Below, one piece after another: positions 1,984 through 25,207 of a DNA stretch of 33,904 bases (position 1 is the stretch's first letter; each line of letters starts with the position of its first letter). The position numbers were made by a program, and so were the translations under genes. The DNA is from Methanomicrobiales archaeon. Lineage in GTDB: Archaea > Halobacteriota > Methanomicrobia > Methanomicrobiales > Methanospirillaceae. The notes below the pieces were generated by a model, which saw only the letters and a program-made list of their open reading frames with translations, made no database searches and was not told the origin of the DNA. The stretch is taken from assembly GCA_025360805.1 (NCBI GenBank), contig JANYBK010000246.1:1-33904 (forward strand), written 5' to 3'.

Positions 1984-2004
1984 AATATTACTATTGGTAA
2001 TATT
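1984..2004 (-). promoter_or_regulatory. Palindrome upstream of the 113-aa gene
   Basis: AATATTAC and GTAATATT form a perfect eight-base inverted repeat around a five-base centre. It lies 25-45 bp upstream of the ATG at 1959, where a TATA box or operator would be expected. It could be the binding site of one of the small regulators of the element. This is inferred from position and symmetry only. Confidence 0.4.
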
Positions 2005-3128: not shown

Positions 3129-3286
3129 TCTCCCACCTCGTCTAACGGGCAGTCATTTTTAAGGGAGCAGTTGCAGCATCGACAAATAAAAATATCTGTT
3201 CCAGCGGATTCAAAGCAAATACAATTCCGAATTCCCGACCAATCAGTGAAAACAACGTCAACTCCGTCGTCAACAGTCAACGTCAC
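3125..3286 (-). CDS. Small cysteine-rich (zinc-ribbon-like) protein, 53 aa
   Basis: A GTG start is preceded by AGGTGA and overlaps the stop of the upstream gene as GTGA. The product has a beta-rich N-terminus and a C-terminal half with seven cysteines, including CIC and CRCCNC followed by a further Cys six residues on. This suggests a metal-binding ribbon. The frame stays open for about 16 codons upstream, but there is no ATG there. The stop overlaps the ATG of the next gene. The cysteine pattern argues that this is a real protein. Partner and role are unknown. Confidence 0.55.
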   Translation of the reverse strand: MTLTVDDGVDVVFTDWSGIRNCICFESAGTDIFICRCCNCSLKNDCPLDEVGE

Positions 3287-3438
3287 GGTTTCACCTTCTC
3301 TGTAAGGACGTCTGTCACAATTTTTGATAGCCCATAATATCGATTATCGGCGGTTTTAACCAGAATGCCCCTGCTGGCGCATTCCTCTAAAAGAAGCAAT
3401 GGTATTTTTACCTGACATTGATGAATAATGGCTTGCAT
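3283..3438 (-). CDS. Small winged-helix-like protein, 51 aa
   Basis: The 51-residue product reads like the second half of a winged helix: a hydrophobic helix (IPLLLLEECASRGIL) followed by a wing-like VKTADNRYYGLSK and a final helix. The ATG is the first after an in-frame stop. No good Shine-Dalgarno sequence was found, so a longer or coupled start is possible. Another minus-strand frame at 3356-3571 overlaps it. Its TGA overlaps the GTG of the cysteine-rich gene. It may be a small DNA-binding regulator of the element. Confidence 0.5.
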   Translation of the reverse strand: MQAIIHQCQVKIPLLLLEECASRGILVKTADNRYYGLSKIVTDVLTEKVKP

Positions 3439-3571
3439 AGTTTATCATTGGTTCGCAAACGAAGAACTTTCGCACACGCTCCATTATAATACCGCGATTT
3501 ATCATTTCCGCGTGAATTCTACAGATAAGATGACTGAATTGATTAAAAGTACCTTTGGCGAGTCTTTTCAT
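3356..3571 (-). CDS. Doubtful ORF, 71 aa
   Basis: A 71-codon frame overlaps the better-supported winged-helix gene in another frame. Its first 45 residues are helical and basic and look protein-like. The last 25 run through the coding region of the other gene and look random. It may be a real short gene with a fortuitous tail, or the N-terminal half of the winged-helix gene joined by a lost frame. No ribosome binding site was found. Confidence 0.2.
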   Translation of the reverse strand: MKRLAKGTFNQFSHLICRIHAEMINRGIIMERVRKFFVCEPMINYASHYSSMSGKNTIASFRGMRQQGHSG

Positions 3572-3659
3572 CTGTGTTCAAATGGTGGTGCATCAATCAT
3601 AAAACTGTGAATCATCAAACAGCAAATAGAATTTTTCAACAAATAATTTCATTTTTTCG

Positions 3660-4068
3660 TTCATTTTTGCTCACGCCTGTAAAATGTTTTTAGAGTTCAT
3701 TTTTAACTCTGATTGGCAAATAGAGTTCAAATTTTTAGCGCTGTTTTATTCTGCGACAAATCGACCTGAACAAAGTTCAAAAACCTTAGGATCCTTAGGA
3801 TCTTTTGCTATATCCATTATGTATAGAACATTTTTATTTCCCCTTTTACTAAGAAACACATTTCTTTTTTTACTTCATATTTTAAAGAGTACTTTTTTTT
3901 TTCCACACGCGCGGATTGAGAGAAAGATCCTAAGGATCCTAAGGTTTTTGAACTTTGTTCAGGTCGATTTGTCGCAGAATAAAACGGCGCTAAAAATTTG
4001 AACTCTATTTGCCAATCAGAGTTAAAAATGAACTCTAAAAACATTTCACAGGCGTGAGCAAAAATGAA
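3660..4068. repeat. 146-bp near-perfect inverted repeat with 117-bp centre
   Basis: Bases 3660-3805 and 3923-4068 are reverse complements over 146 positions with two mismatches (at 3681 and 3742). The 117-bp centre is AT-rich and unpaired. Each arm contains CCTTAGGATCCTTAGGATC-type tandem units at its inner end. The structure ends 14 bp from the stop of the primase-helicase gene and lies between the two small-gene clusters. Possible roles are the replication origin, a very large terminator hairpin, or a pair of inverted insertion ends. The interval 3572-4082 holds no other gene. Confidence 0.85.
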
Positions 4069-4082
4069 TGAAAAATGACGAA

Positions 4083-6503
4083 TTATTGTTGTAAAATTCT
4101 GCCAGATGTTGGAGAAACATCGGAAATTTTACCTTTCCAGGACAACTTGCTTCGCCAAACCCAATTTTTTAAACCGCGAGTTTTGTTTAGCGTATCTACA
4201 ATCTGTATTGATACGAACCCTTCTGCCGGAAGCTTCCGCCCGAAATCAACTTCGGAACCAATTCGCTTTTTAATCGGAACTTCGGTGTCCTCGCAAAATT
4301 TCGTATATTCTTCAAATAACCGGCGTTTGCTATATTCAAATTTAATTTCGCCTTCAACAAAATTATCCCGAATCCACATTTTTAATGGATTGGAAAGCAT
4401 GCCCCAGCGATCTCGAATCTCGCCGGATGAACGGTTCACTAGCAACTGGCCGCGCGCGTCTATACGCAGCAGTTCAGCCAGTGCGAGATTCAACAGTCCC
4501 GACAAAAACGCTTTCGTAAATGTGCGGGTTTGAAAGCCGACATCTTTGGGGTGCGAAAACGGAAACGATACAAATTCCCATCGTCCCCACCACGCTTCGT
4601 CATATTGCAGTTCCGCGTCGTATGTTGGGGGTTGATTGCAACTAAAAACGTGTGGAGCGGTTATGTGGCCGGTATATGGCGTTCGTCCTTTTCGTTCAAT
4701 CTCGTGCGTCGTACGTCCGTCGAGTTTTTTTAACTTTCCGGCACCGGAAAGTGGAATATCTTTTAGATCATCATAAATATTCAAAATTTTGCTTTCTAGT
4801 CTCGCAGACAAAAATCTGACATCTGCACAAATTTCTTGAAGAGAAACATCTGAAATTTGCGTTTCTCCACAAAATTTCATAAGTAGATCCAGATATGTCG
4901 ATTTTCCGGCGTCGGTTTCGCCTTGAAGCAGATAATTTCTTTTTAACGTCGTGCGATTTGCTTGCTGATATAAAGCCTGCGCCAAAATTTGGATTAACAG
5001 CGGAACGTCGCTTTCATCAACCCACGACGATAAAACGTCGAGAACTGGTTGAATCGGCGCGTTCGGATCATATTCGACTGGCAGCTTCACAGTTTTTCTG
5101 ATTTCGTGCGAATGTTGCAAAACAGTAATTTTTCCTTTTGAAACGTGCAAAGCGCAGTTTTCAACCAATAAAATACCGTCTGGCAGATCGAAAGGAAATT
5201 CTGGTTCGTGCCCCATATTTTTTGAATGCGTTTCAACTTCACGATAGAGCAGCGAAATTTTTTCGGATAAGCCGAACGTCATGTAAATTTCTCTCAGATC
5301 GGAACCAAGTTCATTTATATTCGTCCTGTAAATATGATTTTTTAGATCATAAACGTAGAGATAATTTTTGAAGTTTACGACGTGATATTTTGTATATAAA
5401 AAATTTGCAAACTCACCGCAATCAAGAACGTTTTTTAAAACTACTCCCGTCTCTGGATCCAAAATCGGGATAATAAAACTCGGTGTATCATCAGACGCCG
5501 AAATTTTCTTTTGGCAAAATTCGATATCTTTCGCGATTTCAGGAAACAGAATTTCGTCCGGTTTTGGATTCTCAAATTCTGAATTTAGAACGACGCACGC
5601 CTGAACGATCGCGTCTTTGGCGAATCCACCCCGTACCATCTTCCCAACGGCGCTCAGCAACGCCGGATGTCTGGCGGTAACCGCCTTTGGATTTTGTAAT
5701 TTTTTTGATTTTCCCTTGCGCGGTTCGGCAACCGAATTTTTGTTTGCATCGCAAACTGCCGATAAGCACCGGCTGGGGACCGGTGTAAAATTGTCAGGGA
5801 TTTCTTTGATAAAACTCCGTCTGTGCGGTCTTTCAGAAGTATTTTCGCCTTTCCTCGCCATCGTGCCATAAAGTTTAAAAATCCGCGATGGATTGCTATT
5901 TGAAACATCGACGCCGATTTTGTCAGTGTCAAAGCGTTTTGATAGCGCGTAAAGGATTTTTTTAACTATGACGTCGTTTGTTGCGCATCGGGGTAAATTG
6001 ATCCTGTAAAGCAAATGCCAGCCATTTCCTGAACACGCGATGATCGGTTTTGGAAATTCGAATTTCGATAAATAATCGATAACTTTTTCCGCAACGGCGT
6101 ATGCCCCGTCAAGCTCGTTTTGAGTAGAGCTGATACCAGCCGGACGCTTTGGATCGATGTCGATTGGCAAAAAATCCCAATTTATAATATCGTCGTCACA
6201 CGTCATTTCATTTGCTTTTATCCCGTATGTTTCGATTCTGTTTGAACGTCGTGCGAGCAATGACGGGTTTGTTGCATTTAGTGTTATGTAAATTCCCCTT
6301 GATTGCGAATCCATGCCGGCGGCGTCGTGCGCCAATTTCGCGAGATGTTCGTTATCAAAAAAACCGCACCACCAAAATCCTTTGCGATTCTGACCCCGGA
6401 TTTCAATGCATTCCCGATCGAGCACGATTTCGGCGAGGGTTGCCAAAATCACATTTTCCGGTTTTTGAATAACTGCCGCAATGGGAATTGCTTCCGGCAT
6501 CAT
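4083..6503 (-). CDS. Primase-helicase (AEP primase + SF3 helicase)
   Basis: This replication protein of about 806 residues is a two-domain fusion. The N-terminal 220 residues carry archaeo-eukaryotic primase features: an Asp-x-Asp pair in PIDIDP (about 116-118), GWHLLY with its histidine (about 164), and VDVSNSNPSRIFKLYGT (Asp about 200). The C-terminal half has a superfamily 3 helicase Walker A motif, GETDAGKST (around residue 530), an acidic Walker B region (NIYDDLKDI) and the Asn of VFSCNQPP. Such proteins unwind and prime plasmid or virus DNA. A GGAGG site lies four bases before the ATG at 6503 and seven before the ATG at 6500, so either may be used; a GTG at 6506 is less likely. It is coupled to the preceding gene by TGATG. 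Confidence 0.9.
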   Translation of the reverse strand: MMPEAIPIAAVIQKPENVILATLAEIVLDRECIEIRGQNRKGFWWCGFFDNEHLAKLAHDAAGMDSQSRGIYITLNATNPSLLARRSNRIETYGIKANEMTCDDDIINWDFLPIDIDPKRPAGISSTQNELDGAYAVAEKVIDYLSKFEFPKPIIACSGNGWHLLYRINLPRCATNDVIVKKILYALSKRFDTDKIGVDVSNSNPSRIFKLYGTMARKGENTSERPHRRSFIKEIPDNFTPVPSRCLSAVCDANKNSVAEPRKGKSKKLQNPKAVTARHPALLSAVGKMVRGGFAKDAIVQACVVLNSEFENPKPDEILFPEIAKDIEFCQKKISASDDTPSFIIPILDPETGVVLKNVLDCGEFANFLYTKYHVVNFKNYLYVYDLKNHIYRTNINELGSDLREIYMTFGLSEKISLLYREVETHSKNMGHEPEFPFDLPDGILLVENCALHVSKGKITVLQHSHEIRKTVKLPVEYDPNAPIQPVLDVLSSWVDESDVPLLIQILAQALYQQANRTTLKRNYLLQGETDAGKSTYLDLLMKFCGETQISDVSLQEICADVRFLSARLESKILNIYDDLKDIPLSGAGKLKKLDGRTTHEIERKGRTPYTGHITAPHVFSCNQPPTYDAELQYDEAWWGRWEFVSFPFSHPKDVGFQTRTFTKAFLSGLLNLALAELLRIDARGQLLVNRSSGEIRDRWGMLSNPLKMWIRDNFVEGEIKFEYSKRRLFEEYTKFCEDTEVPIKKRIGSEVDFGRKLPAEGFVSIQIVDTLNKTRGLKNWVWRSKLSWKGKISDVSPTSGRILQQ

Positions 6504-6706
6504 CACACCTCCGTTAAAAGTTCGATTTCGTCTCTGGCGCGCGGCAACGACCCGATTAATTCTTTATACGTCAATCCATCGACGACAAGGTTGTTAATCG
6601 AGTGCGTTTGATCGGCGTAAAGTTGATTTAAGCAGAAATTTATTGCCGTTTTTGCGGATATCAGAGGCCTGCCGGTTTCTAATTCAGATTTTGAAAAATA
6701 TTTCAT
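6503..6706 (-). CDS. Hypothetical protein, 67 aa
   Basis: The small helical protein contains a stretch reading as two amphipathic helices around ISAKTAINFCLNQLY and GLTYKELIGSLPRARDEIELL. A strong TAGGAGG ribosome binding site lies eight bases before the ATG. Its stop overlaps the primase-helicase start. Its placement directly before the replication gene suggests a helper or copy-number role, but the sequence shows no known domain. Confidence 0.65.
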   Translation of the reverse strand: MKYFSKSELETGRPLISAKTAINFCLNQLYADQTHSINNLVVDGLTYKELIGSLPRARDEIELLTEV

Positions 6707-6717
6707 TGGCTCGCCTC

Positions 6718-6978
6718 CTACGGGTAAATTGCTAAATATCCCTTTTCGGTAATTTTTGTGGAATTCCGAATTTTCTCGATAAATCCGAATTTTTCGAGAT
6801 TGGAAAACTCGATAAAAAACCGTAAAAGATCAATTTGATAATTCGGATAATAAATTCCGTACATTTTCCGACGGACCGTCTCCACATCGCAGCTTTGACC
6901 GTCGATAGAAAAGATCGCTTTGAGTACATCCAGGTGCCACTGGGTCAGGACGAACGGTTTTGAATTCCTCTTCGGCAT
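6718..6978 (-). CDS. Winged-helix-like protein, 86 aa
   Basis: Starting at the ATG at 6978 the product has 86 residues. A GTG at 7011 would add 11 but would run back into the previous gene. The pattern of helices (LTQWHLDVLKAIFSI, VETVRRKMYGI, LLRFFIEFSNLEKFGFIEKI) followed by a short strand pair (TKITEKGYLAIY) fits a winged helix-turn-helix DNA-binding fold. It sits two bases after the stop of the 104-residue gene. It may regulate the replication operon or act in initiation. Confidence 0.6.
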   Translation of the reverse strand: MPKRNSKPFVLTQWHLDVLKAIFSIDGQSCDVETVRRKMYGIYYPNYQIDLLRFFIEFSNLEKFGFIEKIRNSTKITEKGYLAIYP

Positions 6979-6980
6979 GT

Positions 6981-7295
6981 TCAACCAACCCCGATCGGCG
7001 ATAATGTCCACAGGCCATTTACGATGAATAGTTTGGTCGTCACAGGATTGAACCGGTGTATTTGCCGTAAAGCTCGTACCCCGTCGGCTCGATATCGTCC
7101 GACGGGAATATCGGTTTCCGCGACGGATTGCCCTGCCGATACCAGCCCTCGTATTATGTCGCGCCGGGAAGCCTGTTCGCGGGCTTTTTTGCTCGCGGTT
7201 GTGGCGCGAAACCTTTTAACGGGGTCGGCTAATGTGTGTTTGGCGATTTCCGTTTCTCCGGATCCTTCACAGGGGTCCGGGCAGTTTTTTTGCAT
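6981..7295 (-). CDS. Hypothetical basic protein, 104 aa
   Basis: The N-terminal third is polar with two cysteines. The middle is rich in Arg and Lys (VKRFRATTASKKAREQASRRD), and the C-terminal part is probably beta-rich. A GGTGA ribosome binding site lies six bases before the ATG, and the ATG overlaps the stop of the upstream 49-codon gene (TGATG). I prefer this frame to the antisense 123-codon frame at 7024-7395 because of the coupling at both ends. The basic middle might bind nucleic acid. Function is unknown. Confidence 0.5.
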   Translation of the reverse strand: MQKNCPDPCEGSGETEIAKHTLADPVKRFRATTASKKAREQASRRDIIRGLVSAGQSVAETDIPVGRYRADGVRALRQIHRFNPVTTKLFIVNGLWTLSPIGVG

Positions 7296-7444
7296 CAGAT
7301 CACCCAGTCGAGGGCAATTTCGCCGTGACGAGCGAGAACAATCGCCGCTGCTCGGTGAAAATTATCAAGTTTGTCAAAAACTTCTCTGCTTATGATCGGT
7401 TTCGGGGTAGAAACATTTTTCTCGTGACCGTGTAAATTTACCAT
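7295..7444 (-). CDS. Hypothetical small protein, 49 aa
   Basis: The 49-codon gene was found by following overlaps. Its ATG lies within ATGGTAA, overlapping the stop of the 35-codon gene. AGGTG lies seven bases upstream, and its TGA overlaps the next ATG. The C-terminal two thirds read as a regular amphipathic helix pair (REVFDKLDNFHRAAAIVLARHGEIALDWVI), which looks protein-like rather than random. No known family was recognised. Confidence 0.5.
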   Translation of the reverse strand: MVNLHGHEKNVSTPKPIISREVFDKLDNFHRAAAIVLARHGEIALDWVI

Positions 7445-7545
7445 CGGACAGCACCTACCTCAATTTCGTGACTGTCAACCGGAATGCTGGTCTGGATCTT
7501 GACGGAACTACCAGCATTTCGGACTACGGCTTCAGCATTCAGCAT
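7438..7545 (-). CDS. Hypothetical micro-protein, 35 aa
   Basis: The ATG lies one base after the stop of the ribbon-helix-helix gene. The sequence GGAGG ends nine bases before it, giving one of the strongest ribosome binding sites in the element. The 35-residue product looks beta-rich (SSVKIQTSIPVDSHEIEVGAV). Its stop overlaps the next ATG. The signals support translation, but the length leaves doubt about function. Confidence 0.4.
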   Translation of the reverse strand: MLNAEAVVRNAGSSVKIQTSIPVDSHEIEVGAVRW

Positions 7546-7546
7546 T

Positions 7547-7696
7547 TTATTTTTCCTCCGTTTGGTGTTCAAATCGCTCAACAACTTCGGTGACCGCTCG
7601 ACGACATACGGCGGAAATATTAAATCCCATTCGATGTGCCCGATCTCGCAGGTCAACGGGGATCAAAACTGTGATATTATCAGTTTTTTTGCTCAT
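7547..7696 (-). CDS. Ribbon-helix-helix regulator (CcdA/VapB-like), 49 aa
   Basis: The 49 residues follow the ribbon-helix-helix plan. A short beta strand near the N-terminus (ITVLIPVDLRDRA) is followed by helix, turn (MGFNIS) and helix (AVCRRAVTEVVERFE). This is the fold of CcdA/VapB-type antitoxins and plasmid copy-control repressors, which bind DNA as dimers. It is the first gene of the leftward operon that ends with the primase-helicase, behind a TATA-like box and paired repeats suited to autoregulation. No toxin of known family follows directly; the next genes are unrecognised. It may control replication or be the antitoxin half of a new pair. Confidence 0.75.
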   Translation of the reverse strand: MSKKTDNITVLIPVDLRDRAHRMGFNISAVCRRAVTEVVERFEHQTEEK

Positions 7697-7707
7697 GTTG
7701 CTGTTCC

Positions 7708-7769
7708 TGAACCGTTTAATTTTACAGGTTCACAAACATGAATGTCACAAACACTATTTAAATATTTAC
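7708..7769 (-). promoter_or_regulatory. Promoter and operator region of the replicon operon
   Basis: TCACAAAC occurs twice on the plus strand, at 7730-7737 and 7745-7752, exactly 15 bp apart. An inverted repeat TGAACC/GGTTCA occupies 7708-7713 and 7727-7732. An AT-rich TATA-like box (TATTTAAATATTTA) lies at about 7755-7768, about 60 bp before the ATG at 7696. Direct repeats with fixed spacing next to a ribbon-helix-helix gene are the usual sign of an autoregulatory operator. Confidence 0.5.
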
Positions 7770-8092
7770 AATTTGCAATAAAAATCCTGCGGGTTTAAAA
7801 ATAAAAATAAAGACAAAAAACGGTGTTAGTTGTTGTTACAACAACACAAAACTAATTAATTTTTTATTTATATCAGAACGCACGCGATATTTTACTTGTA
7901 GATGAGATGAAATTATTTCGCAATTGTGATAACTGCCACATTCATTTTTAAAAACGAAAATTGAGATTTTGAAAACTCGCATGACCGCACAAAGATTTTT
8001 TGGCAGAACGTTCTAACAACAAAATTCAACGTTATAATTGAAGCGCGTTTTTAATTTAGCGTGTTTTAAAACGGGCGCGCTTAAAAAGAGAG
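7770..8092. other. Gene-free stretch between regulator and integrase
   Basis: No gene was found in this very AT-rich stretch. A perfect inverted repeat, GTTGTTG and CAACAAC around TTA, occupies 7829-7845 and could be an operator. Arms AAGCGCG (8041-8047) and CGCGCTT (8076-8082) form a hairpin just past the end of the integrase gene and may be its terminator. Confidence 0.4.
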
Positions 8093-9337
8093 TTATTTTC
8101 GGGGGTTTTGCATTTCTTCCAAAATTTCTTTCATCAGTTCCTTTTTCAAAACTGTAAATTTTTCCAACATTGCAGTTGTGTTTTGCAAATCTTCGACTTG
8201 TTGCAATCGCTCCTGGAGTAATGTATTTTCGCGTTGTAACGCCAGCACCTTATCCGCTTGGCTATCAACTCGCTTTTTTAATTCCTGCCGAACCTCAAAG
8301 CCATAATCTCCAATCGTGACGACATGACGAAAATCTTCATATTTTTTTCGGAGTTGGGATTCTCCAAATCGCCGATACGACGCAGCAAGTCCCGCCCTGT
8401 GGCCCATTAATTCCTCAACAACCTCATCGGGACAACCAGCCATTTTTAATGTTGATGAAAAGTATTTCCTGAAACTGTGCGGGTGGATTGTTGTCCGACT
8501 CGTCCTCATATCTTGATGATAGATCCCTGCCCGTTTCAATGCGGATATTAGAGATTTTCGTATTGCAGCAGTTGTTATAGGGAAAATCGTCTTTTGATTT
8601 AGGTCATACAATTTCATTATTCGTGAAGACCGTTTTACTGCACGATCCATTATCGACGGGCGCCCGTCGAGATATTGTTGTAATGCTTCTTTTGCTTCAT
8701 CGGTGAAAAATGTAATCCTACTTTCTCCTGATTTACTGATAAGATCCGATATGTAAATGATGTTTATATCCATTTTTATATCATTTTCGGTTAATTTCAG
8801 CAGTTCGCCGATACGAATTCCCGACGACAGCATTAATAAAATCGCAGCTCTTAATCGCACATCCCCCGAATGTGCGAGTATTAAACGCACAATATCAGGG
8901 GTGATTTCATCCTCGCGCGTAACACCTGCCCTTTGAGTAGGCATGTATTTTTTTAGTTCCCTGACTTCTTTACTGTTCAATGTGTGATCGTAATGTTCCA
9001 TCCAGATTTTAACGCAGGCAATATTTTGAGAAATACTATGCGGGGGTCTTTTGATTTCAGAAAGATAGTCCTTATACGCTTTCAAATCTTCAAGGGGATT
9101 GACTTCACCCTCAAAATATGCCGTTGCCAATTCTTCATATCGAATCCGATCCTCCGGTGTCGAATCCTTACTTTTGCGAACATTTCCATACCTACCATCG
9201 AGGAATTGAAATATGGATGACCTATACCCCAATTTGGTCGTGCCTTTGAATCCGCCACGAATAGTGATAACAGATTTCCCGCCGATTGTCGGGTGGACGA
9301 ATTCGGTTCCAGTCAAAAAATCGAATATATATTTCAT
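8093..9337 (-). CDS. Tyrosine recombinase / integrase
   Basis: The 414-residue integrase has all the active-site residues of the tyrosine recombinase family: Arg175 (SGIRIGELL), Lys202, His287 and Arg290 (HPHSFR), His313 (MGHR) and the nucleophile Tyr321. A core-binding domain precedes these (residues about 60-135), and a long coiled coil of about 60 residues follows (345-405). The ATG at 9337 is chosen because the open frame upstream is merely antisense to the HAD gene. It probably integrates and excises the element. Its 5' end lies 27 bp from the HAD gene, so the attachment site is likely in or near that gap. It carries its own downstream hairpin. Confidence 0.92.
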   Translation of the reverse strand: MKYIFDFLTGTEFVHPTIGGKSVITIRGGFKGTTKLGYRSSIFQFLDGRYGNVRKSKDSTPEDRIRYEELATAYFEGEVNPLEDLKAYKDYLSEIKRPPHSISQNIACVKIWMEHYDHTLNSKEVRELKKYMPTQRAGVTREDEITPDIVRLILAHSGDVRLRAAILLMLSSGIRIGELLKLTENDIKMDINIIYISDLISKSGESRITFFTDEAKEALQQYLDGRPSIMDRAVKRSSRIMKLYDLNQKTIFPITTAAIRKSLISALKRAGIYHQDMRTSRTTIHPHSFRKYFSSTLKMAGCPDEVVEELMGHRAGLAASYRRFGESQLRKKYEDFRHVVTIGDYGFEVRQELKKRVDSQADKVLALQRENTLLQERLQQVEDLQNTTAMLEKFTVLKKELMKEILEEMQNPRK

Positions 9338-9364
9338 AGTCCACATATGCTGTAGGAGAATATA

Positions 9365-10042
9365 ATGGTTGTTCAAAAACGATACAAAGCCGTATTGTTT
9401 GATATGGATAATACCCTCTTTGATCTTGTCGGTGCACAGAATTCTGCCTGTCACGCGGTTGCAAAATATCTTGGAAATGATGATGGTGATGCACTCTTTG
9501 AGTATTTCCTTCGCCCCACCCGTGGATTTGAGTCGTATGAAAATATTCTTGACTATATGGATGACCACTCGCTCTATAATGATGAAATGTACAAAGAAGC
9601 CTGCCGGATTTACGAGAACAGGAAACTCGGTCACATTACACCTTATCCGGGTGTAAGAGAAACTCTTGAAATACTCAGGGGATTCGGGTTCCCGATGGGC
9701 ATTGTAACAGATGCTCATTCTAAAGACGCGACACTTCGTCTGGAAAAGACTGAACTTCTACCATTTTTTTGTGGGATGGTGACTTATGAAATGGTGGGTG
9801 TAAAAAAACCTGCGCCCGATCCATTTCTCTTTGCACTCGAAATGATGCAGGCAAAAACCCACGAGGTACTATTCGTAGGAGACAGTCCCAGACGGGATAT
9901 TGAACCGTGCAGGATACTTGGCATATGCTCGGTCTATGCCCGGTATGGTGACCGTTTCTCAGATGATAGAAGTGAGTACAGGGCAGATTTTATTATCGAT
10001 GGTATGGATGAGTTGCCCGGTATTCTTGCTGGACTGTCATAA
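9365..10042 (+). CDS. HAD-family hydrolase / phosphatase
   Basis: The 225-residue protein is of the haloacid dehalogenase superfamily. Motif I is FDMDNTLFD (nucleophile Asp13 and Asp15), motif II is the Thr/Ser region around IVTDAHS, motif III is the Lys of GVKKPAPDPF, and motif IV is FVGDSPRRD. The all-helical insert between motifs I and II is the C1 cap of the phosphoglycolate phosphatase or HAD-IA group. AGGAG lies seven bases before the ATG. The substrate cannot be read from the sequence; a small sugar- or glycolate-phosphate is likely. Its upstream region touches the integrated element, so its native promoter may have been displaced. Confidence 0.85.
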   Translation: MVVQKRYKAVLFDMDNTLFDLVGAQNSACHAVAKYLGNDDGDALFEYFLRPTRGFESYENILDYMDDHSLYNDEMYKEACRIYENRKLGHITPYPGVRETLEILRGFGFPMGIVTDAHSKDATLRLEKTELLPFFCGMVTYEMVGVKKPAPDPFLFALEMMQAKTHEVLFVGDSPRRDIEPCRILGICSVYARYGDRFSDDRSEYRADFIIDGMDELPGILAGLS

Positions 10043-10749: not shown

Positions 10750-11514
10750 TCAACTGATTTGATATTCTTTTAGTGACCTTATCTTTTCTGCAAGCTCCCG
10801 CACTACAATCCTGACAGGACTATTCCATGGAATATGCGAGACCGGAATTGCAGCAAGGTCAGCAGCCTCCACATCGGGATCATGCGGAAGAATTGCAATG
10901 GGCGTTTCATTGCCGATATCGACCGGTGCTCTGCCGGTTTTGAATTTATTGAACACTATATGGATCTTTTCAGGTTCCAGACCTAGCTGTGTGGCAATTT
11001 CCCTTATCCTTGAGATCGTACGCAACCCCCTTGCTCCGGGATCACTGACAATCAACAGCATATCGGGTTTTCCAATCGTCCCTCTGCTTATGTGCTCCAT
11101 GCCCGCTTCCGTATCAATAACAATGAAACGGTATTCTCTCTCAAGTTTAGTCATACATTCTGACAGGAGATCATTTGCAAAACAGTAGCACCCGCTACCT
11201 TCTGGTCTTCCCATTGCAACCAGATCAAATCCTTCAGCCTCAACAATAACCTGCCGGAACCTTAAGCGAACATAATTATGCCGGTTCATTCCGGGTGGAA
11301 TCTTTCGTGTAAATGCTTCCTCGCGCATACTGCCAAGTGTTTCACTTACTTTAATTCCAAGGGCCTCGTGAAGATTTGCATTTGGGTCCGCATCCACAGC
11401 AAGCACTGGTTTTTCGCCGATATCAATGAAGGAGCGGATGAGGAGGGAACTGAGGGTTGTCTTACCGGTCCCGCCTTTTCCTGAAATAACAATGGTAAAT
11501 GGATGTGCTGACAT
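10750..11514 (-). CDS. cooC: CooC/AcsF-type nickel-insertion ATPase
   Basis: The 254-residue protein of the MinD/ParA-like deviant Walker group has a P-loop, GKGGTGKTT, at residues 12-20 and the Cys-x-Cys pair (Cys109, Cys111; GCYCFAND) that binds metal at the dimer interface in CooC. CooC-type ATPases deliver nickel to CO dehydrogenase, and the AcsF form serves acetyl-CoA synthase. Here it is the last gene of the ACS operon, 24 bases after the MetE-like gene, and no CODH gene is present in the window. It therefore probably matures the A-cluster of the ACS in this operon, or a CODH encoded elsewhere. Confidence 0.88.
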   Translation of the reverse strand: MSAHPFTIVISGKGGTGKTTLSSLLIRSFIDIGEKPVLAVDADPNANLHEALGIKVSETLGSMREEAFTRKIPPGMNRHNYVRLRFRQVIVEAEGFDLVAMGRPEGSGCYCFANDLLSECMTKLEREYRFIVIDTEAGMEHISRGTIGKPDMLLIVSDPGARGLRTISRIREIATQLGLEPEKIHIVFNKFKTGRAPVDIGNETPIAILPHDPDVEAADLAAIPVSHIPWNSPVRIVVRELAEKIRSLKEYQIS

Positions 11515-11538
11515 AGTAACAATCGGTATTTGCCTTAA

Positions 11539-12573
11539 TCAGGTAGATTTCTCACGAATTCTACGTGAAATCTCTGCTGCTGCCTGCATAATCGCTCGGG
11601 CCATTTTGCGATCGGCAAAACGAATCCCGCAGCTGGGGGTGATGAGTGACTGGGCATCGAAAAGATCTTCTGACATGCGGTTACAGAGATTTGTACGGAT
11701 CTTAAGGTATTTGTTATAGAGCGAATTCGTGGTTTCTGTTGTAAAAAGCTGGGGATCAGAAGGAACAATGCCCCATGCGACAACACCCCCGCGCTCCATA
11801 TAAGTAATGATTGTATCAGCATACAACAGGAACTCGTTTGCTGTTGTATATGCATCCAGTGAGATCACTGATGGATTGAGCCCTATAATAAATTCCCAGT
11901 CCGTATTCGAGCAGCAATGGATCCCTAGTCCCCCTTCAACTAATGCCGCTGCATCTTCCCAATTGGCTTTTACTGTCTCCCTGTCAATGGGTACTACTGA
12001 AGATCCCAGCGATGCAAGATAGGGTTCGTCAAGAAAAATAAGGGTCTCTTTCACACCGGTCTTTTCCTGCATCTCAACTTCACACCAACGGGCTTTGAGT
12101 GCCAGCATCTTTCCCAGTACATCTGCCAGCTGTGCATCAAAATAGATCGGGCGCTTTGACTCATCTACAACCTGCATGCCGAATGTGACAGGCCCTGTAA
12201 TCTGGAATTTCAGTATGCTGACTGCAGGAAGCTTGCGCATCATCATCTCAGTAAAAGCGGACGAATATTCCGTGTGAAGGGCATAGGGTGCAAAATTTTT
12301 CTCAACATAATCCATGTACACCTGTTCCATGGCAGCAGTCTGGTCTGAAGAACTATCAAAGAAGAGACGTTCATCCAGTATAATCCGTCCCGGCAACTGC
12401 TCAGAATCATTAAAAACAATTCTCTCTAACAATCCTCTGCGGGGCAGGGAGGGAATATAGGGAAACTCGGGGAAGATTTCCAGCACATCCTGGCAAGCCT
12501 CAAGAGGATCGATATTTGGAAGAGAACCGATACCGGTTGCCAGTGAATGAGGAGAAGTGATCATCTTTGACAT
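11539..12573 (-). CDS. MetE/UROD-like methyltransferase in ACS operon
   Basis: This 344-residue TIM-barrel protein of the cobalamin-independent methionine synthase / uroporphyrinogen decarboxylase superfamily starts at the ATG at 12573. A GTG at 12582 overlaps the previous stop and is possible. Seen motifs are TGIGSLP near the N-terminus, FQITGPVTFG, FLDEP, and a likely zinc site made of GIHCC (His-x-Cys) and a late Cys in ITPSCG. Zinc in this fold activates a thiol or holds a methyl acceptor. Its place inside an acetyl-CoA synthase operon that lacks acsE suggests methyl transfer to or from the corrinoid protein. That is inference, since members of this superfamily have varied substrates. Confidence 0.75.
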   Translation of the reverse strand: MSKMITSPHSLATGIGSLPNIDPLEACQDVLEIFPEFPYIPSLPRRGLLERIVFNDSEQLPGRIILDERLFFDSSSDQTAAMEQVYMDYVEKNFAPYALHTEYSSAFTEMMMRKLPAVSILKFQITGPVTFGMQVVDESKRPIYFDAQLADVLGKMLALKARWCEVEMQEKTGVKETLIFLDEPYLASLGSSVVPIDRETVKANWEDAAALVEGGLGIHCCSNTDWEFIIGLNPSVISLDAYTTANEFLLYADTIITYMERGGVVAWGIVPSDPQLFTTETTNSLYNKYLKIRTNLCNRMSEDLFDAQSLITPSCGIRFADRKMARAIMQAAAEISRRIREKST

Positions 12574-12578
12574 GACAC

Positions 12579-14069
12579 TCACTTCCTAATCAACCGGCAT
12601 GTTTCAAGGAGTTTCTGAACCATGGGAAAGATCGTGAGATCTGTATGGGGGAGGAATGTGCTGGAGGTGTATTCATCCATGAATGCCGACTCAGCATTGA
12701 GCTCAATATAGGCAATCCTGCACGCAATATCATCAAGAGCTTTTCTTTTCCTCCGGTTGATGAGCGCAATATTTGCGCCGGTTACTGCCCCGTTTCCGAT
12801 ATTTATAATCTTGTCTGTCCCTATTTCCGGAATGAGTCCAATGATAGTTGCATTCTTTTTGTTGATGTAGTTTCCAAACGCCCCCGCGAAATAAATGGTG
12901 CTGATCTCTTTTCGGTTAATGCCGGCCTGCTTCATCAGGGTCAGACAGGCTGCATGCACCGAAGCCTTGCTCATGATCAGATTTTTGATATCATTTTCGG
13001 TAATGACGACATCTTTTCCAATATCTGTTTCTGTTGCCCATGCTATGACATACTCAGGAAGGTGTCCGTTCATGCGTATTCGTGGATTGGAAATACCGGT
13101 ATTAATGTGCCCGGTTCGGTCTATGACACAGGTACAGAGAAGTTCTGCTAAAAGATCGATCAATCCTGAACCACATATTCCCCGTGGTTTTTTACCATTA
13201 ATTGTGGAATAAACCGTATTGAGCGTGACTGGATCGATGGTAATCTTTTCAATAGCACCCGGATTTGCCCGCATACCAAAGAGTACCTCACCGCCTTCAA
13301 GTGCGGGGCCGGCCGCACCTGCGCATGAAAACATCCATTCATTATTACCGAGCACTACTTCAAAATTGGTACCGATATCAATCAGGAGGGAGATCTGATC
13401 TTTCTCGCTCATGCCACTGGCAAGGATATCTGCAATGATGTCACCACCGATAAAATCGCTGACAGCCGGAAAAACAAAGAGTCCACCATGGGGATTACAG
13501 GCAATGCCTATCCTGCCCGTAGACACCGAAAGTGCCCTTCGCACTACCGGAACATATGGTTCAGCGATCATATAGGCTGGATCAATACCCAGCAGCATAT
13601 GTGTCATAATGGTATTTCCTGCCACTACTACTTCGTATATATCCTCACGATCTATACCGGCTGCGTTGGATGCGGAAGTGATCGCAGCATTGATACTCTC
13701 AGTAGCAAGTGCCTGAAGTTTTAAAAGCCCGTTTTTGCGGGCAAAATTAACACGGGCCAGGATATCTTCCCCACAACTGATTTGCCTGTTGTAATTCGAT
13801 GCAACACCCGCTACTTTGCCAGTAACAAGATCCCAAAGGTACACTACAATTGTTGTAGAGCCCAGATCAACTGCGGCTCCAAAGAGTCTTTTTGAAGTAT
13901 CATTTTCCTGCACGTCAACCAATCGGTATCCGCCCGGCACAAGGGCAACAGTCCCAGTTGCTTTCCATTCTGAATGACGGAGGATTGATGGAATTTCCCT
14001 GAGCACTTCTAACGGAGCATACATTTTTTCTGCAGCCGGGCCTCCGGTTTTCTGGATGCCCCAGAGCAA
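12579..14069 (-). CDS. acsV: RACo (AcsV) C-terminal ASKHA part, split by frameshift
   Basis: This is the 3' portion of the reductive activator of the corrinoid iron-sulfur protein. It has the ATPase core of the ASKHA fold: phosphate-binding AAVDLGSTTIVVYLWD, SLLIDIGTNFEVVLG, and an adenosine region GAFGNYI. ATP binding by this domain drives electron transfer that restores Co(I). The sequence continues in this frame upstream of 14069 without a stop to about 14129, where it should join the ferredoxin part. The apparent TTG start at 14069 has no ribosome binding site, so it is not a separate gene. Adding one A to the AAA run at 14127-14129 would give a single 633-residue protein, the family's normal length. 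Confidence 0.85.
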   Translation of the reverse strand: MLWGIQKTGGPAAEKMYAPLEVLREIPSILRHSEWKATGTVALVPGGYRLVDVQENDTSKRLFGAAVDLGSTTIVVYLWDLVTGKVAGVASNYNRQISCGEDILARVNFARKNGLLKLQALATESINAAITSASNAAGIDREDIYEVVVAGNTIMTHMLLGIDPAYMIAEPYVPVVRRALSVSTGRIGIACNPHGGLFVFPAVSDFIGGDIIADILASGMSEKDQISLLIDIGTNFEVVLGNNEWMFSCAGAAGPALEGGEVLFGMRANPGAIEKITIDPVTLNTVYSTINGKKPRGICGSGLIDLLAELLCTCVIDRTGHINTGISNPRIRMNGHLPEYVIAWATETDIGKDVVITENDIKNLIMSKASVHAACLTLMKQAGINRKEISTIYFAGAFGNYINKKNATIIGLIPEIGTDKIINIGNGAVTGANIALINRRKRKALDDIACRIAYIELNAESAFMDEYTSSTFLPHTDLTIFPMVQKLLETCRLIRK

Positions 14070-14479
14070 CCGGGAAAGATCCGGGGAGGGATCGGAGATA
14101 GTTGGGGGTTGAAGTTCAACATAATATTTCCGGACCGATGATGAAATTCAATGGCTGTTTCCTGTCCATCTACGAGAATCTTTTGTTCCTGTATCAATGT
14201 ACTCTCGGGTATAAACACCTGCAAATCGCTTTCCACAGTTGTCTGACAGGCAAGACATGATCCCAGTGCAAGTTCATCCTCGGTAAAAAAACGCCCGAAT
14301 TTCTCCCGGTCAAAGTTTGTCTTTCCTGACTGGACATGGACAATACATTTCCCACATTTTCCTAAACCCCCGCAGACTACGTTGATGTTGAGTCCTGCAC
14401 GCTGGACTGCGTCAAGAATCGTGCTACCCGGTTCAACCTCGATCTTACGATAACTGGGAATAAAAGTAACAGTACGCAT
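14009..14479 (-). CDS. acsV: RACo (AcsV) N-terminal ferredoxin part, split by frameshift
   Basis: This is the 5' portion of the corrinoid activator. A plant-type [2Fe-2S] ferredoxin domain with Cys36, Cys42, Cys45 and Cys75 spans residues 1-100, followed by a linker. The ATG at 14479 directly follows the acsC stop (TAAATG), with AAGGAGTGG about ten bases upstream. The true frame ends near residue 117, at 14127-14129. Beyond that, the printed frame gives unrelated residues to a TAG, whereas the shifted frame gives KYYVELQPP, typical of the family's linker. If the shift is real, only a free ferredoxin domain is made, unless ribosomes slip. Confidence 0.85.
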   Translation of the reverse strand: MRTVTFIPSYRKIEVEPGSTILDAVQRAGLNINVVCGGLGKCGKCIVHVQSGKTNFDREKFGRFFTEDELALGSCLACQTTVESDLQVFIPESTLIQEQKILVDGQETAIEFHHRSGNIMLNFNPQLSPIPPRIFPGCSGASRKPEARLQKKCMLR

Positions 14480-15814
14480 TTATTGTTTCCACTCCTTATT
14501 AAGAAAATCACCAATTTCTGCTGCATCCCGAGGTCCGACAAGTACTTTCCACCCGGTTGCCTCTTCAATCCTGCCCGAGAGCGGGGATGAGTAGCCCGGT
14601 ATGATGAGTGTCCTGTGAGATACCTCATCTTCAACTGAGAATTTTTTTATTGATTCTTTCACAAGCATCTCACTGAGTTTTCCTGCTGCAACTGCTGTGA
14701 GCACCGATAGTCCTTCGGTGTCGACAATTAGCATGAAGCAGGGCACACGGGAAGATTCAAGATAACCCTGAAGTGTAAAAAACGTGAGCGAGAAGTTCAC
14801 AGTCATAAGGACGGGGGCGTCCTTCCCGGGAGTTCCCACACGATACAGACCCGGATTCATCTGGATAGGTTTCTGGGGATCTGTGTAAATATTCTGGCGC
14901 AGGGTCAATGCAGCTTTTGCAGATGCCTGCGAGAGGGGGTGGGTAATGATGACTGATGCATATTTGGAAATACCCAGTGCAATTGCTGCTTCCTGCTGCT
15001 CCATTACAGAAGCATCGAGAAATACCGGGTACCCGAGATCGGGTGCTACCCTTGTGATGGAAAGCTGGCGGATTGCTGTAGACCGGACAATAAATGCTTG
15101 TAACGATTCGGGCGAAAGATCCAGCATGAGATCCTGCACTTCTTTTGTTGTGCAGTCTTTGGCGAGTTGTGCAAGTTTTTCAATATTATTTCCCTTAATG
15201 ACCAGCGGGCAGCCATGATGTTTTGCAAGGGTGCAGAATTCCTCGTAATTTTCCTGTGTAGCTGCGTGAATAAGCGGGCGGTAGGTTCCGCAATGTGTAA
15301 GAGCTGCAGATAGTGCTGCAGGATCTTTAGACATTAGTACCAGCGGCAGGTCAGCAGTTTTTTCAACCGTTTCTACAGCAAGCGCAAAAGTATCTGCAGA
15401 GCCACTGGCATTTTCTATTGCAATCCCACTAAACCGTAGATCAGCCCCTACACGGGAAAACGACTCATTCAGGACACGCGTTGTAACGGCCTGAATTTCA
15501 TCTACGGTCTGGGTGTCAGCAATCTTGAACATTATTCCCGGGGGATGATAAAATGTCTTTTCATGACGGTAGAGTACGAACTCTTCTCCAACAGCAAAGG
15601 ATCGCTCACCAATACCGAGCTTCACAATCCTTATCGGAGGTCGTGTTGTTGCACCCAGTATTGCCCGGGCTCCTTCATCGAGGTACGGGCATAGGTCCAC
15701 ATCCGTTTTTCCCCCGGCCAGTTTCATGGCAAAGGTCAGGCAAGTGGGATCGCCACACTCCTTGCAGTTTTTTCTAGGCAGGAGTTTGTAAATGTCGAGT
15801 GCTTTGAGTGCCAT
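14480..15814 (-). CDS. acsC: Corrinoid iron-sulfur protein, large subunit
   Basis: The 444-residue subunit binds a [4Fe-4S] cluster through Cys17, Cys20, Cys25 and Cys42 (NCKECGDPTC and later DLCPYL). The large TIM-barrel and the C-terminal corrinoid-cap region follow. The protein accepts a methyl group on cobalt and passes it to acetyl-CoA synthase. The ATG at 15814 is chosen over the one at 15835 because GGAGG lies seven bases upstream and it starts one base after the acsD stop. Length and cysteine positions match the bacterial AcsC and archaeal CdhE family. It is the third gene of the operon. Confidence 0.93.
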   Translation of the reverse strand: MALKALDIYKLLPRKNCKECGDPTCLTFAMKLAGGKTDVDLCPYLDEGARAILGATTRPPIRIVKLGIGERSFAVGEEFVLYRHEKTFYHPPGIMFKIADTQTVDEIQAVTTRVLNESFSRVGADLRFSGIAIENASGSADTFALAVETVEKTADLPLVLMSKDPAALSAALTHCGTYRPLIHAATQENYEEFCTLAKHHGCPLVIKGNNIEKLAQLAKDCTTKEVQDLMLDLSPESLQAFIVRSTAIRQLSITRVAPDLGYPVFLDASVMEQQEAAIALGISKYASVIITHPLSQASAKAALTLRQNIYTDPQKPIQMNPGLYRVGTPGKDAPVLMTVNFSLTFFTLQGYLESSRVPCFMLIVDTEGLSVLTAVAAGKLSEMLVKESIKKFSVEDEVSHRTLIIPGYSSPLSGRIEEATGWKVLVGPRDAAEIGDFLNKEWKQ

Positions 15815-15815
15815 A

Positions 15816-16772
15816 TTACTGCCCTCCGGCTGCATTTTTTCCGGATTTCAGGCTTAAAAATGCTTTTTTTAGAAGTGGAATTGTCCGTGGATGGCGGACA
15901 CAGATGATCTCTGCACCGGCAACTGCAGCAGAGAGTCCGGTTGTGAATTCCCACTGGACTGCAATATCGTCTTGTAGAGCCGGTTCTGCTACCCTGACTT
16001 CTTTTACGGTTAGAGTATCGATGGCAGAACTGATGATGGGCATGGCAAGATCTGCATCACCTTTAAGCGCAGCGAACCGGATACGTTCCATGGCCGAATA
16101 GGAATACTCAAACCCGTAGCCAAGAGAGCCGGTGTAAGGATCGATGACTATGTGATCCCGGGATAAACCGATCTCCTTGAGCAGGATGTTAAGTTGCTTT
16201 GCAAGATTGACATCAATGGGGGACTGGGCAATTACTGAATGATTGTATGCCATGGCAGCGGCAGCAATACTGCGGTACCTGCTTGCTTCAGCAGTTCCAA
16301 GGAGCAGGCGTTCTCCCTGTCCGGCTTCTCCACATTTTAAGAATACTTCACTGTCGATTTTTGGTTCGTTACTTCCCTCAATGATGAGGGGCAGATGGGT
16401 TTTGGAGAGCACATTATCTACGGTTTTTCCCACAGATGCAATATCTGAAAAATCCCTTTGCCGGGTACTGGTCAGGTACAGGCGCACCATATCAGATCCA
16501 TAGACGGAATCTGCGGCTTTAGCCCATTCTCCGCAATCATTTACCAGATCCCCACAATAAGCAAGGACAATCGGAGACCAGTACTTTGGGTTATCACAGA
16601 TCTCTAAGGCTATAAGCGGAGCAGAAGAGTCCGGTATATTTTCAAGAAACGGAAGTGTCTTTCCGTTTCCAATCCGGTAAGAGTGACTGCGAGTACCCCC
16701 TTCGGCCTTTGTTGCACCAAGCAATACTTCTGTAATTGTGCCACTCCAGCCAAACTGAACATCAAATCCCAT
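15816..16772 (-). CDS. acsD: Corrinoid iron-sulfur protein, small subunit
   Basis: The 318-residue TIM-barrel subunit pairs with AcsC and helps hold the corrinoid. Typical segments are the N-terminal GGTRSHSYRIGN region, FLENIPDSSAP, and the late IDPYTGSLGYGFEYSYSAMERIR stretch, seen here around residues 206-228. It starts four bases after the acsB stop with GGTGTGAG as ribosome binding site, and stops one base before the acsC ATG, so all three are one transcript. Length fits the family. No anomaly was seen. Confidence 0.93.
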   Translation of the reverse strand: MGFDVQFGWSGTITEVLLGATKAEGGTRSHSYRIGNGKTLPFLENIPDSSAPLIALEICDNPKYWSPIVLAYCGDLVNDCGEWAKAADSVYGSDMVRLYLTSTRQRDFSDIASVGKTVDNVLSKTHLPLIIEGSNEPKIDSEVFLKCGEAGQGERLLLGTAEASRYRSIAAAAMAYNHSVIAQSPIDVNLAKQLNILLKEIGLSRDHIVIDPYTGSLGYGFEYSYSAMERIRFAALKGDADLAMPIISSAIDTLTVKEVRVAEPALQDDIAVQWEFTTGLSAAVAGAEIICVRHPRTIPLLKKAFLSLKSGKNAAGGQ

Positions 16773-16776
16773 GATC

Positions 16777-18807
16777 TCACACCAGTGGCTTCATAGTAAG
16801 AGCCGGGTGTTTTACGTCATCAAGATAAACCATGAGATCTTCGATTGTGTCAGCGGTAGTCTCATCTGCAATTTTGTCAAAAAGATCCGGTTTACCCTGC
16901 TCATTAAATTTTTTTACAAGGCGCATTTTGAGTTCTTCTTTGAGTTGGGCGGGCATCCAGACAAGGCGTTCAATTCCCCCCTCGCCTTGTAAGAACCGTT
17001 CAGAAAGAATATACCCTTTTGAGATTCCAGCAAACCCCGGGGTCTGCGCTCCACCACCGATAGTACCGGCAAGGGTTGAAAACGACATGCCCGATGGGGT
17101 AAGCCCTTTGAATTCACGATTCACTACCATAATTCCATTCACTTCAGGAAGCATCAGTGCGATGCATTCAAAACACCCGCAACAGGTCATCGGGTATTCC
17201 ATGACGCTGTAGAGCGAGCACCGGTCGATCTCACCGTGGCTGGCTTTTTTAACGAACTTATTTATTCCATCAAATTCACCGTTCAGAGCATTGATCGCAG
17301 ATCCTTTTTCTACAGGCTGATTTGCACCAGCAGGCGAAATCTCGTACGCGATCTTACCATCCAGCCAGCTGATGGCTCCACACAGAGCGGGACGTTCAGG
17401 AGTAATCACACAGACATGGTTCGGTGCGAATGTCTGACAGAGTGTGCAGGAGTAATAGGTATTCACATCCCCGTCTCGCATACCCTTAATGCGAGCATCC
17501 CGCTCGTCATAGACCTGCTCTGCCTCTTTTTTTGCTGCCAATACTTTTTCCTTGTCCGTAATCAGCGTGATCGATACAGCATCCAGCAACTGGGGAAAAT
17601 CCATGCGGAACTTACTTGCGAGAAGTTTGCCCAGATGTTCAATCTTCACACCTTTTGCAACAGCTTCTTTCGATAATCTGACCCATATGAGATCCCGCTG
17701 GGCTACATGCCACGAACCTTCGCCGTAGTTAACAAAATTATGAATCCTTCTTTCGAGAACCGGCTCATAATCTTTTTTCATTGTTTTTCCGGCCACTTCA
17801 ATTATAATTGCCAGCGGGTTTGCAGACCCTTCCTGCATGGAATCGATCTCGGGACCGATGACTCTTACCTGCCCGTCTTTGATCTCGCCCGGGTTTTTCA
17901 TACGCAGCAGTTCAAACGCGGGTGATCTGCCGCCACCAAACTCCACGTACATCTCTTCTTTCCGGATACTTTTCCCTTCAAAAGCGGGGGAACATCCCAT
18001 AGGTATCGGGATTGCAGTAACGTTAACGCGGATACATTTTAGCTCCATCCCTTTTTTTACTATATCTTCCGGAATTGCCGGGATCCATGCTCCTCCCAAA
18101 TAATCCCCCAGCGAAAGTATAGGAAATCCGAGCACCCGCATACCATCGACAAGTGCAATCTCTTCATCAGAAAGACCGGGAAGTACAATAACAATGGCTT
18201 TTGCCCGTTCCGCTGCATAGGTTAACAGACGCTGCATATCGCCGGGGGTGACTCCCCCAAACATCATAGCGACACGAGCAATGATATCAACGAAATGCAC
18301 ACCATGCAAAGCGCTTGAACCAAGAGGAATCAGGCGATAGTCAAGACCCAATTTTACTCCGGCAGATGATAAAGAAGGCACAACCGGGCCGGCAAGGAAG
18401 GTGAGCATATATTTTTCCTGAAGCTCGCGGCAGATTGCAGCAGCAGACCCGGCACTTTTAGGAGACCCGACAATGAGAGCTAGGCCAAGAATACTGCCAT
18501 CAACAAGTGAATACCCGAGTTTCCGGATCGTACTATCGCCAATAAAACCCGTGTAGGGTGACACTTCTTTTCCATACTGTGCCATTTTCTTTGCAATAAT
18601 AAATTCAGAAGCAACCAATGGGTTGTCTTTTGTACGGGAAAAAATTTCCAGCAAGGTATTCCGGTCATGCACCGGTATACCGGTCAGTGCGTAGGAAATG
18701 GGGAGATGATAGGCTGTATCATCATAGGAAAGGGTTCCCTGTATAAGCGGAATTGCTGCTTTAAATTGAAGTTCTCCTTTTTTTATTGCCAATTCAACAT
18801 CGATCAT
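16777..18807 (-). CDS. acsB: Acetyl-CoA synthase, bacterial long form
   Basis: This is the acetyl-CoA synthase catalytic subunit, about 676 residues from the ATG at 18807. A GTG at 18819 would add four; GAGTGA eight bases before the ATG favours the shorter form. Counted from the GTG, the A-cluster cubane ligands are Cys458, Cys461, Cys470 and Cys480 (C-x2-C-x8-C-x9-C), and the nickel-binding Cys-Gly-Cys is 547-549. These spacings equal those of the well-studied bacterial enzyme. About 300 residues precede the methylation and A-cluster domains. This extra N-terminal domain is present in bacterial ACS, where it contacts CODH, and is absent from typical archaeal CdhC of about 470 residues. It joins CO, methyl and CoA into acetyl-CoA, and is first in the operon. 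Confidence 0.93.
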   Translation of the reverse strand: MIDVELAIKKGELQFKAAIPLIQGTLSYDDTAYHLPISYALTGIPVHDRNTLLEIFSRTKDNPLVASEFIIAKKMAQYGKEVSPYTGFIGDSTIRKLGYSLVDGSILGLALIVGSPKSAGSAAAICRELQEKYMLTFLAGPVVPSLSSAGVKLGLDYRLIPLGSSALHGVHFVDIIARVAMMFGGVTPGDMQRLLTYAAERAKAIVIVLPGLSDEEIALVDGMRVLGFPILSLGDYLGGAWIPAIPEDIVKKGMELKCIRVNVTAIPIPMGCSPAFEGKSIRKEEMYVEFGGGRSPAFELLRMKNPGEIKDGQVRVIGPEIDSMQEGSANPLAIIIEVAGKTMKKDYEPVLERRIHNFVNYGEGSWHVAQRDLIWVRLSKEAVAKGVKIEHLGKLLASKFRMDFPQLLDAVSITLITDKEKVLAAKKEAEQVYDERDARIKGMRDGDVNTYYSCTLCQTFAPNHVCVITPERPALCGAISWLDGKIAYEISPAGANQPVEKGSAINALNGEFDGINKFVKKASHGEIDRCSLYSVMEYPMTCCGCFECIALMLPEVNGIMVVNREFKGLTPSGMSFSTLAGTIGGGAQTPGFAGISKGYILSERFLQGEGGIERLVWMPAQLKEELKMRLVKKFNEQGKPDLFDKIADETTADTIEDLMVYLDDVKHPALTMKPLV

Positions 18808-18968
18808 TACCAGATTCACTCGAATAAATCGTTTCCCTGTAATACTGATATAGTTTCGTTATGATGTAATTACAGTCAATTCCCGTTTTTTTTTAGATAT
18901 GTGTGACTAACTTTAACAAAAATCTATATCCATTATAGATGATATTCTCTTTAACGAGAGGCTAGAAA
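18808..18968. promoter_or_regulatory. Divergent promoter region acsB / surface protein
   Basis: The two genes start back to back about 160 bp apart. On the minus strand an AACTATATCAG stretch around 18847-18857 lies about 45 bp before the acsB start. On the plus strand a CTATATCCATTATAG stretch near 18925-18939 lies about 30-40 bp before the surface-protein ATG, with GAGAGG close to that ATG. No further operator is obvious. Confidence 0.4.
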
Positions 18969-24640: not shown

Positions 24641-25207
24641 ATGGCCCGGGCCTATCTCGCATCCTGGCGCAATGATTACCCCCTCCCCGTAACGCCGGAT
24701 GCATTTGTATTCCTTTCAAACAAGAAGGCCCCGCTTGGATATAATGGGTTGGCAAAACAGATTCGTGTCATCGCCAAGAGAGCGGGAATAACAAAGCACA
24801 TCACTCCGCATATCTTCCGGCACACCCGGGCAACTATCCTTATCCGGCAGGGATACGGTGAGGCTATTGTGAAGAAATTACTTTGGGGAAATCTCAACAG
24901 CAAAATGTTTTCAACGTACCTTCACCTGGTCGATTCCGATGTGGAGCGGGTAGTAGCTGAGAAGGCCGGGATCATTACCAAAGAGGATCGGTCAAAAACT
25001 CTTGAAGCCCGGCAGTGCCCCCGGTGTTTCACGGTCAACGGTCCGACCCGGGGACTTTGTGATACGTGCGGATGCGAGCTCACTGAAGAAGCCGCAAATA
25101 ATGCCATACAGGCAAAGCAGCAGGGAGAACTCCAGCCGGAGTTTCAGGCAATGATGGACCGGTTCAGAGGAGAACTGTTGCAGATGCAAAATGCTCGAAA
25201 AAGTTGA
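24641..25207 (+). pseudogene. N-terminally truncated tyrosine integrase
   Basis: The 188 codons match only the C-terminal half of a tyrosine recombinase. His57 and Arg60 (ITPHIFRHTRAT) and the nucleophile Tyr93 (STYLHL) are present, but the SAM-like domain and first catalytic Arg are missing. A zinc ribbon (CPRC and CDTCGC, residues about 115-134) and a helical tail follow, as in many integrases of Methanomicrobiales. The usual second His of the active site is replaced (LWGN). The 77 bases upstream do not hold the lost part. It is a remnant of an old mobile element at the edge of an accessory patch and is probably inactive, though the frame is intact. Confidence 0.8.

Follow-up and report, generated by a model that had tools for sequence, protein, structure and literature searches.

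The window, a stretch of 33,904 nucleotides, belongs to a genome that its named relatives place in Methanoregula. On its minus strand, at positions 10750-18819, it carries an operon of acsB, acsD, acsC, acsV, a MetE-like gene and cooC, in which neighbouring genes overlap or are separated by short gaps (Table 1). Every gene named in an earlier note on this DNA was present on that strand, with one amendment: acsV is split into two overlapping open reading frames (ORFs) by a one-base deletion. In about twenty relatives acsV is one ORF, mostly of 633-640 aa, which rules out two natural genes; the deletion is either a real lesion or an error of the assembly, which comprises 253 contigs and is 87.8% complete. 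As the note had stated, neither CO dehydrogenase (CODH) nor AcsE was recognised within the window. The product of cooC is presumed to mature the A-cluster of the acetyl-CoA synthase (ACS) in this operon. Another Methanoregula operon (L147) has acsC and acsV separated by roughly 3 kb of additional DNA.

Table 1. Features of the operon. NF040764 is the model for the bifunctional alpha/beta ACS, with a cut-off of 800 bits.
Feature	Position	Strand	Details
acsB, long (bacterial-type) acetyl-CoA synthase	16777..18819	-	680 aa; NF040764 910 bits (cut-off 800)
acsD, CoFeSP small subunit (delta)	15816..16772	-	318 aa
acsC, CoFeSP large subunit (gamma), N-terminal Fe-S motif	14480..15835	-	451 aa; NF003195 550 bits
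acsV ferredoxin part, first frame	14009..14479	-	true frame stops near residue 112 at deletion
acsV RACo body (reductive activator of corrinoid protein), second frame	12579..14069	-	overlaps first acsV ORF
one-base deletion splitting acsV	14141..14142	-	vs seven relatives
mesB-like core methionine synthase homologue	11539..12582	-	347 aa; H222, C224, D243, C318; S20, D185
cooC, nickel-insertion ATPase	10750..11514	-	254 aa

The AcsB of the window contains the N-terminal ACS domain with its alcove Phe as well as the A-cluster cysteines, and its length bears out the bacterial-length N-terminal domain described earlier. The six cysteines are spaced 3-9-10-67-2, spacings that we take to match C506/509/518/528/595/597 of Moorella, and the Phe of the CO alcove (F229 of Moorella) is kept in the alignment of the module ACS. 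About 18 residues, corresponding to the RAQ...NFENA helix segment of Moorella ACS, are missing from every archaeal long ACS in the alignment printed, as is part of the N-terminal extension, whereas bacterial sequences and those of an archaeal CooS-AcsB fusion lineage (family f7) have both. Loss of the segment maps to one event on the tree. The missing segment may serve docking to CODH. In the f7 lineage itself (genus g41 of the same phylum; L226, L228-L231), CooS and AcsB lie in one frame of about 1380 aa, which would be a CODH-ACS fusion protein in archaea; it is followed by acsD and acsC, in the acsB-acsD-acsC order of the window, and acsV and cooC are encoded on the opposite strand.

The MetE-like protein matched no Pfam or NCBIfam model, and a PDB sequence search with it returned no match; a fold search was used. 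Its AlphaFold model (pLDDT 94.9) matched cobalamin-independent methionine synthases best, including MetE and MesD structures, and then the related UROD fold; it consists of a single MetE-type barrel with no folate-binding domain. The gene is a MesB-type homologue, with a MetE fold predicted for its product. The zinc ligands H222, C224, D243 and C318 did not vary among 89 homologues, 43 of them archaeal and 46 bacterial, and their spacing agrees with the D. mccartyi numbering within one to three residues. The earlier proposal that the MetE-like protein stands in for a missing methyl partner fits the findings.

Homologues of the MesB-like protein were detected by profile search in 33 of 36 ACS-bearing bacterial genomes, matching the archaeal profile with E values down to 6e-56. 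The bacterial sequences form two groups. The group that is sister to the archaeal clade under midpoint rooting has Ser, Asp and a Gly following the last zinc Cys; the other has Ile at the first and Leu at the last of these sites. This second bacterial paralogue (L186, L192, L197, L199-L208, L210-L214) carries Ile, HLC and Leu in its active site and keeps all zinc ligands and the Asp. With residue roles assigned after Price et al. (PMC7857596), the homocysteine-binding Asp (equivalent to MetE Asp599) is Asp in 46/46 bacterial sequences and Asn in 35/43 archaeal ones, and the homocysteine-binding Ser (equivalent to MetE Ser433) is Ala or Gly in 34/43 archaeal sequences. The window protein (S20, D185) and its sister L116 keep both residues, and L111, which is 88% identical to the window protein, has Asn. 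With this drift, the acceptor might be another thiol. Near-complete genomes of the order almost always (132 of 135) have a MesA-type gene, so the MesB-like protein would be a second methionine synthase.

Across 232 genomes of the order Methanomicrobiales, the module was found in 112 with near-constant spacing; acsB and the MesB-like gene lie 4.9-5.2 kb apart in 40 of the 42 genomes measured. Gene by gene, ACS was present in 130 genomes, the MetE-like gene in 112, CooS in 111, CdhA in 69 and a MesA-type gene in 214. The order has two size classes of ACS, a long one near 680 aa and a short one near 470 aa. As far as the matches listed show, genomes with ACS and no MetE-like gene carry the short form, with three exceptions: two MAGs whose contig ends before the place of mesB (L110, L123) and one with only a fragment (G220). 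In G083, which is 89% complete, the MetE-like gene is present and no ACS match was found. Among the matches listed, long ACS and the MetE-like gene thus occur as a pair, one to one apart from broken MAGs. All six genes are under strong purifying selection, with dN/dS of 0.04-0.22 wherever dS was unsaturated, pairs of CODH-less genomes included. An internal stop interrupts the mesB-like gene of G135, G158 and G213, a possible loss of function or an error; G158 is a single-contig genome that also has CooS and CdhA.

The earlier note had presented this ACS as a possible main enzyme of its host, but it is not the main enzyme of the group: most congeners also have CdhA and the short CdhC. Their retention of the long ACS as well points to a separate job for it. 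A genome-wide check for CODH and ACS genes, suggested in the same note, detected a 674-aa CooS, accompanied by its own CooC, on contig C200 of the window's genome, and neither CdhA nor a second ACS in this 87.8%-complete assembly. An HCP-sized protein lies on contig C123, and the genome's one MesA-type methionine synthase on contig C101.

Among 63 near-complete carriers of the module, 21 have CooS only, 16 CdhA only, 15 both and 11 neither. When these 11 were re-checked for the prismane family, seven had no member at all and three (G134, G082, G056) had only HCP-sized ones; in the last, G076, part of a CooS lies at the end of a contig, which leaves ten CODH-less carriers. These include G056, a single contig that is 99% complete, and G188, a close relative of the window. 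ACS, CoFeSP and a core MetE in a genome without detected CODH are found together in ten near-complete relatives with the same operon, and not in the window's own genome, where CooS is present. No association was seen between CooS and the module (Fisher p 0.38; 36/63 vs 47/72), whereas CdhA was associated (p = 1e-5); both tests ignore phylogeny, so the CdhA association could reflect shared ancestry. CODH, which had been listed as a missing partner, is optional, and we regard the physical unit and its independence from CODH as well supported, with high confidence. In G157 (L158), G219 (L159) and G211, the module's mesB-like gene is followed within a few kb by cooS; in L158 the gene for a 368-aa protein that matched no family stands between the two.

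In trees of AcsB, AcsC, AcsD and RACo, the module proteins each formed one Methanomicrobiales clade (support 97/94 for AcsB), within which families group largely as expected. All four lie apart from the order's own Cdh set and adjoin bacterial-type sequences. The phylogenies that the earlier note had called for thus agree with it on the distance from Cdh and the proximity to bacterial-type sequences, and do not place the module within the bacteria sampled, nearly all of which are Bacillota. In the AcsB tree, Bacillota, Acetoanaerobium, the archaeal f7 fusion lineage and Methanomicrobiales join in an open fork, which in this sample singles out no bacterial donor. A long ACS also occurs in another archaeal family, and M. 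jannaschii, a control genome, passes the long-ACS cut-off. The earlier note had inferred horizontal transfer. A recent arrival in this single chromosome is ruled out by the order-wide presence of the module and its agreement with family structure. If transfer happened, it would date to the base of the order or earlier.

Gene order and RACo had also been counted as bacterial traits. Bacterial loci are arranged cooC-cooS-acsB-acsC-(acsV)-cooC-acsD, whereas acsB-acsD-acsC of the window is the archaeal C-D-E order. In cdh operons of Methanomicrobiales (L167, L168), an AcsV/RACo homologue follows cdhE, which rules out RACo as a bacterial marker. Activation of corrinoid proteins by RACo would accordingly not be limited to bacterial-type sets.

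The operon is best read as a self-contained methyl-supply module. Acetate would enter as acetyl-CoA, the substrate of the module, and the Ni-Ni-Fe4S4 A-cluster of AcsB, working in the cleavage direction that we infer, would split it, yielding CoA, CO and a methyl group, the last of which AcsCD, a corrinoid protein, would take up on its cobalt. From there the zinc-dependent MesB-like protein would transfer it directly to homocysteine to form methionine. AcsV would reactivate AcsCD once its cobalt had been oxidised, and CooC would load nickel into AcsB. Neither CODH nor AcsE would be needed; CO would leave the cell or, in genomes with CooS or CdhA, be oxidised by that enzyme. That the operon makes methionine from acetyl-CoA, as an archaeal counterpart of the Dehalococcoides route, is a proposal to which we give even chances; against it stand the near-universal MesA of the order and the changed homocysteine-binding Asp and Ser of most archaeal members.

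The same proteins could run in the opposite direction, with AcsB joining CO from CooS or CdhA to the methyl group of AcsCD, so that CO2 would be fixed by a split, bacterial-type CODH/ACS. The CooS of the window's genome, accompanied by CooC, makes a supply of CO for synthesis possible there; some CODH occurs in 52 of the 63 near-complete carriers, in three genomes (G157, G211, G219) cooS lies near the module, and the alcove that would hold CO for synthesis is kept. We nevertheless consider synthesis unlikely, given that ten near-complete carriers without detected CODH, one of them a single contig, still have the operon and that purifying selection extends to pairs that include CODH-less genomes. 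CooS is moreover unassociated with the module, the operon lacks AcsE, the aligned archaeal forms lack a segment that CODH-partnered ACS has, and M. hungatei requires acetate despite its own Cdh complex.

Somewhat less probable than synthesis is a different acceptor, for example coenzyme M, in which case the MesB-like protein would exchange methyl groups between acetyl-CoA and methanogenesis and would not make methionine. MesA-type genes already cover methionine in 132/135 near-complete genomes, and the homocysteine positions drift in the archaeal clade around an invariant, thiol-activating zinc site. However, the retention of Ser and Asp in the window and L116, next to Asn in the 88% identical L111, suggests that the site may tolerate both, and the predicted fold is closer to MetE than to the UROD family. 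A switch of thiol that made the operon a CODH-free methyl shunt between acetyl-CoA and methanogenesis, in organisms supposed to be purely hydrogenotrophic, would be a slightly more doubtful version of this idea. Decay of a once complete CODH/ACS, of which the operon would be a remnant, appears highly improbable: partial Codh/Acs sets have been described as ongoing loss (PMC8621161), and there are frame lesions or stops in acsV of the window and in mesB of G135, G158 and G213, but dN/dS is 0.04-0.22, the gene layout is constant across families, and the module falls in a single clade apart from the Cdh set of the order.

The proposed methyl-supply module has a close precedent in Dehalococcoides, for which Deobald et al. 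(PMC7005905) proposed that AcsB cleaves acetyl-CoA, CO leaves and AcsCD passes the methyl group to core-MetE, with no CODH needed. This AcsB-AcsCD-core-MetE route of D. mccartyi, an incomplete Wood-Ljungdahl pathway, is without CODH or AcsE, and the methyl group of acetate ends in methionine there (PMC7005905, PMC7857596). Both systems have ACS and CoFeSP without CODH or AcsE, with a core MetE proposed to take the methyl group from CoFeSP. The archaeal parts differ in that all lie in one operon together with acsV and cooC, the hosts have MesA and often CODH, and the homocysteine-binding residues drift in most members. With the MesB family (PMC7857596) the archaeal protein shares a short MetE without the folate domain, the HCDC zinc site and homology to bacterial members; in contrast, it forms a clade separate from the bacterial one, is almost never the genome's sole methionine synthase, and belongs to a unit that includes the long acsB, acsV and cooC. 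A link of mesB in operons with acsC and acsD in some methanogens has already been published (Price et al. 2021, PMC7857596).

Acetogen CODH/ACS (Moorella, Carboxydothermus) likewise has a long ACS with N-terminal domain, A-cluster and alcove Phe, together with CoFeSP, AcsV and CooC, whereas the archaeal operon is without acsA/cooS or acsE, has another gene order and lacks the N-terminal segment. Archaeal CdhABCDE shares the order of the C, D and E homologues, followed in Methanomicrobiales by an AcsV homologue; unlike it, the module is without CdhA and CdhB, has a long and not a short ACS, and falls in a separate clade for each subunit compared. No paper describing a bacterial-type ACS in Methanomicrobiales was found in the open literature, and no biochemistry was found there on any archaeal module member. 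What appears new is an order-wide, fixed six-gene unit with a long ACS, its CODH independence, the trimmed ACS, coexistence with MesA and the residue drift.

These results bear on how ACS genes are interpreted in the order. Partial Codh/Acs sets of Methanoculleus have been read as recent or ongoing loss (PMC8621161), for which the module offers an alternative reading. M. hungatei, in which the role of Cdh has been called undefined, and Methanoculleus bourgensis both depend on acetate although they retain ACS genes, and a CODH-free unit would give such genes a definite job. If the proposal is correct, acetyl-CoA cleavage would be a biosynthetic source of methyl groups in archaea, in parallel to Dehalococcoides, and surveys that score "CODH/ACS present" by acsB, acsC or acsD alone would overcall autotrophy in the order.

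The surroundings of the operon gave no functional clue, and none of its neighbours is conserved across the families examined. No RNA elements or tRNAs were found in the window, and a search of a plasmid collection gave a single distant match. Beside the operon lies a likely integrated element, at positions 581-9718 of the window, with a tyrosine recombinase (8093-9718), a P4-type primase (4083-6506) and a STAND/AAA-like ATPase (581-1621); a second integrase fragment is located at 24641-25207.
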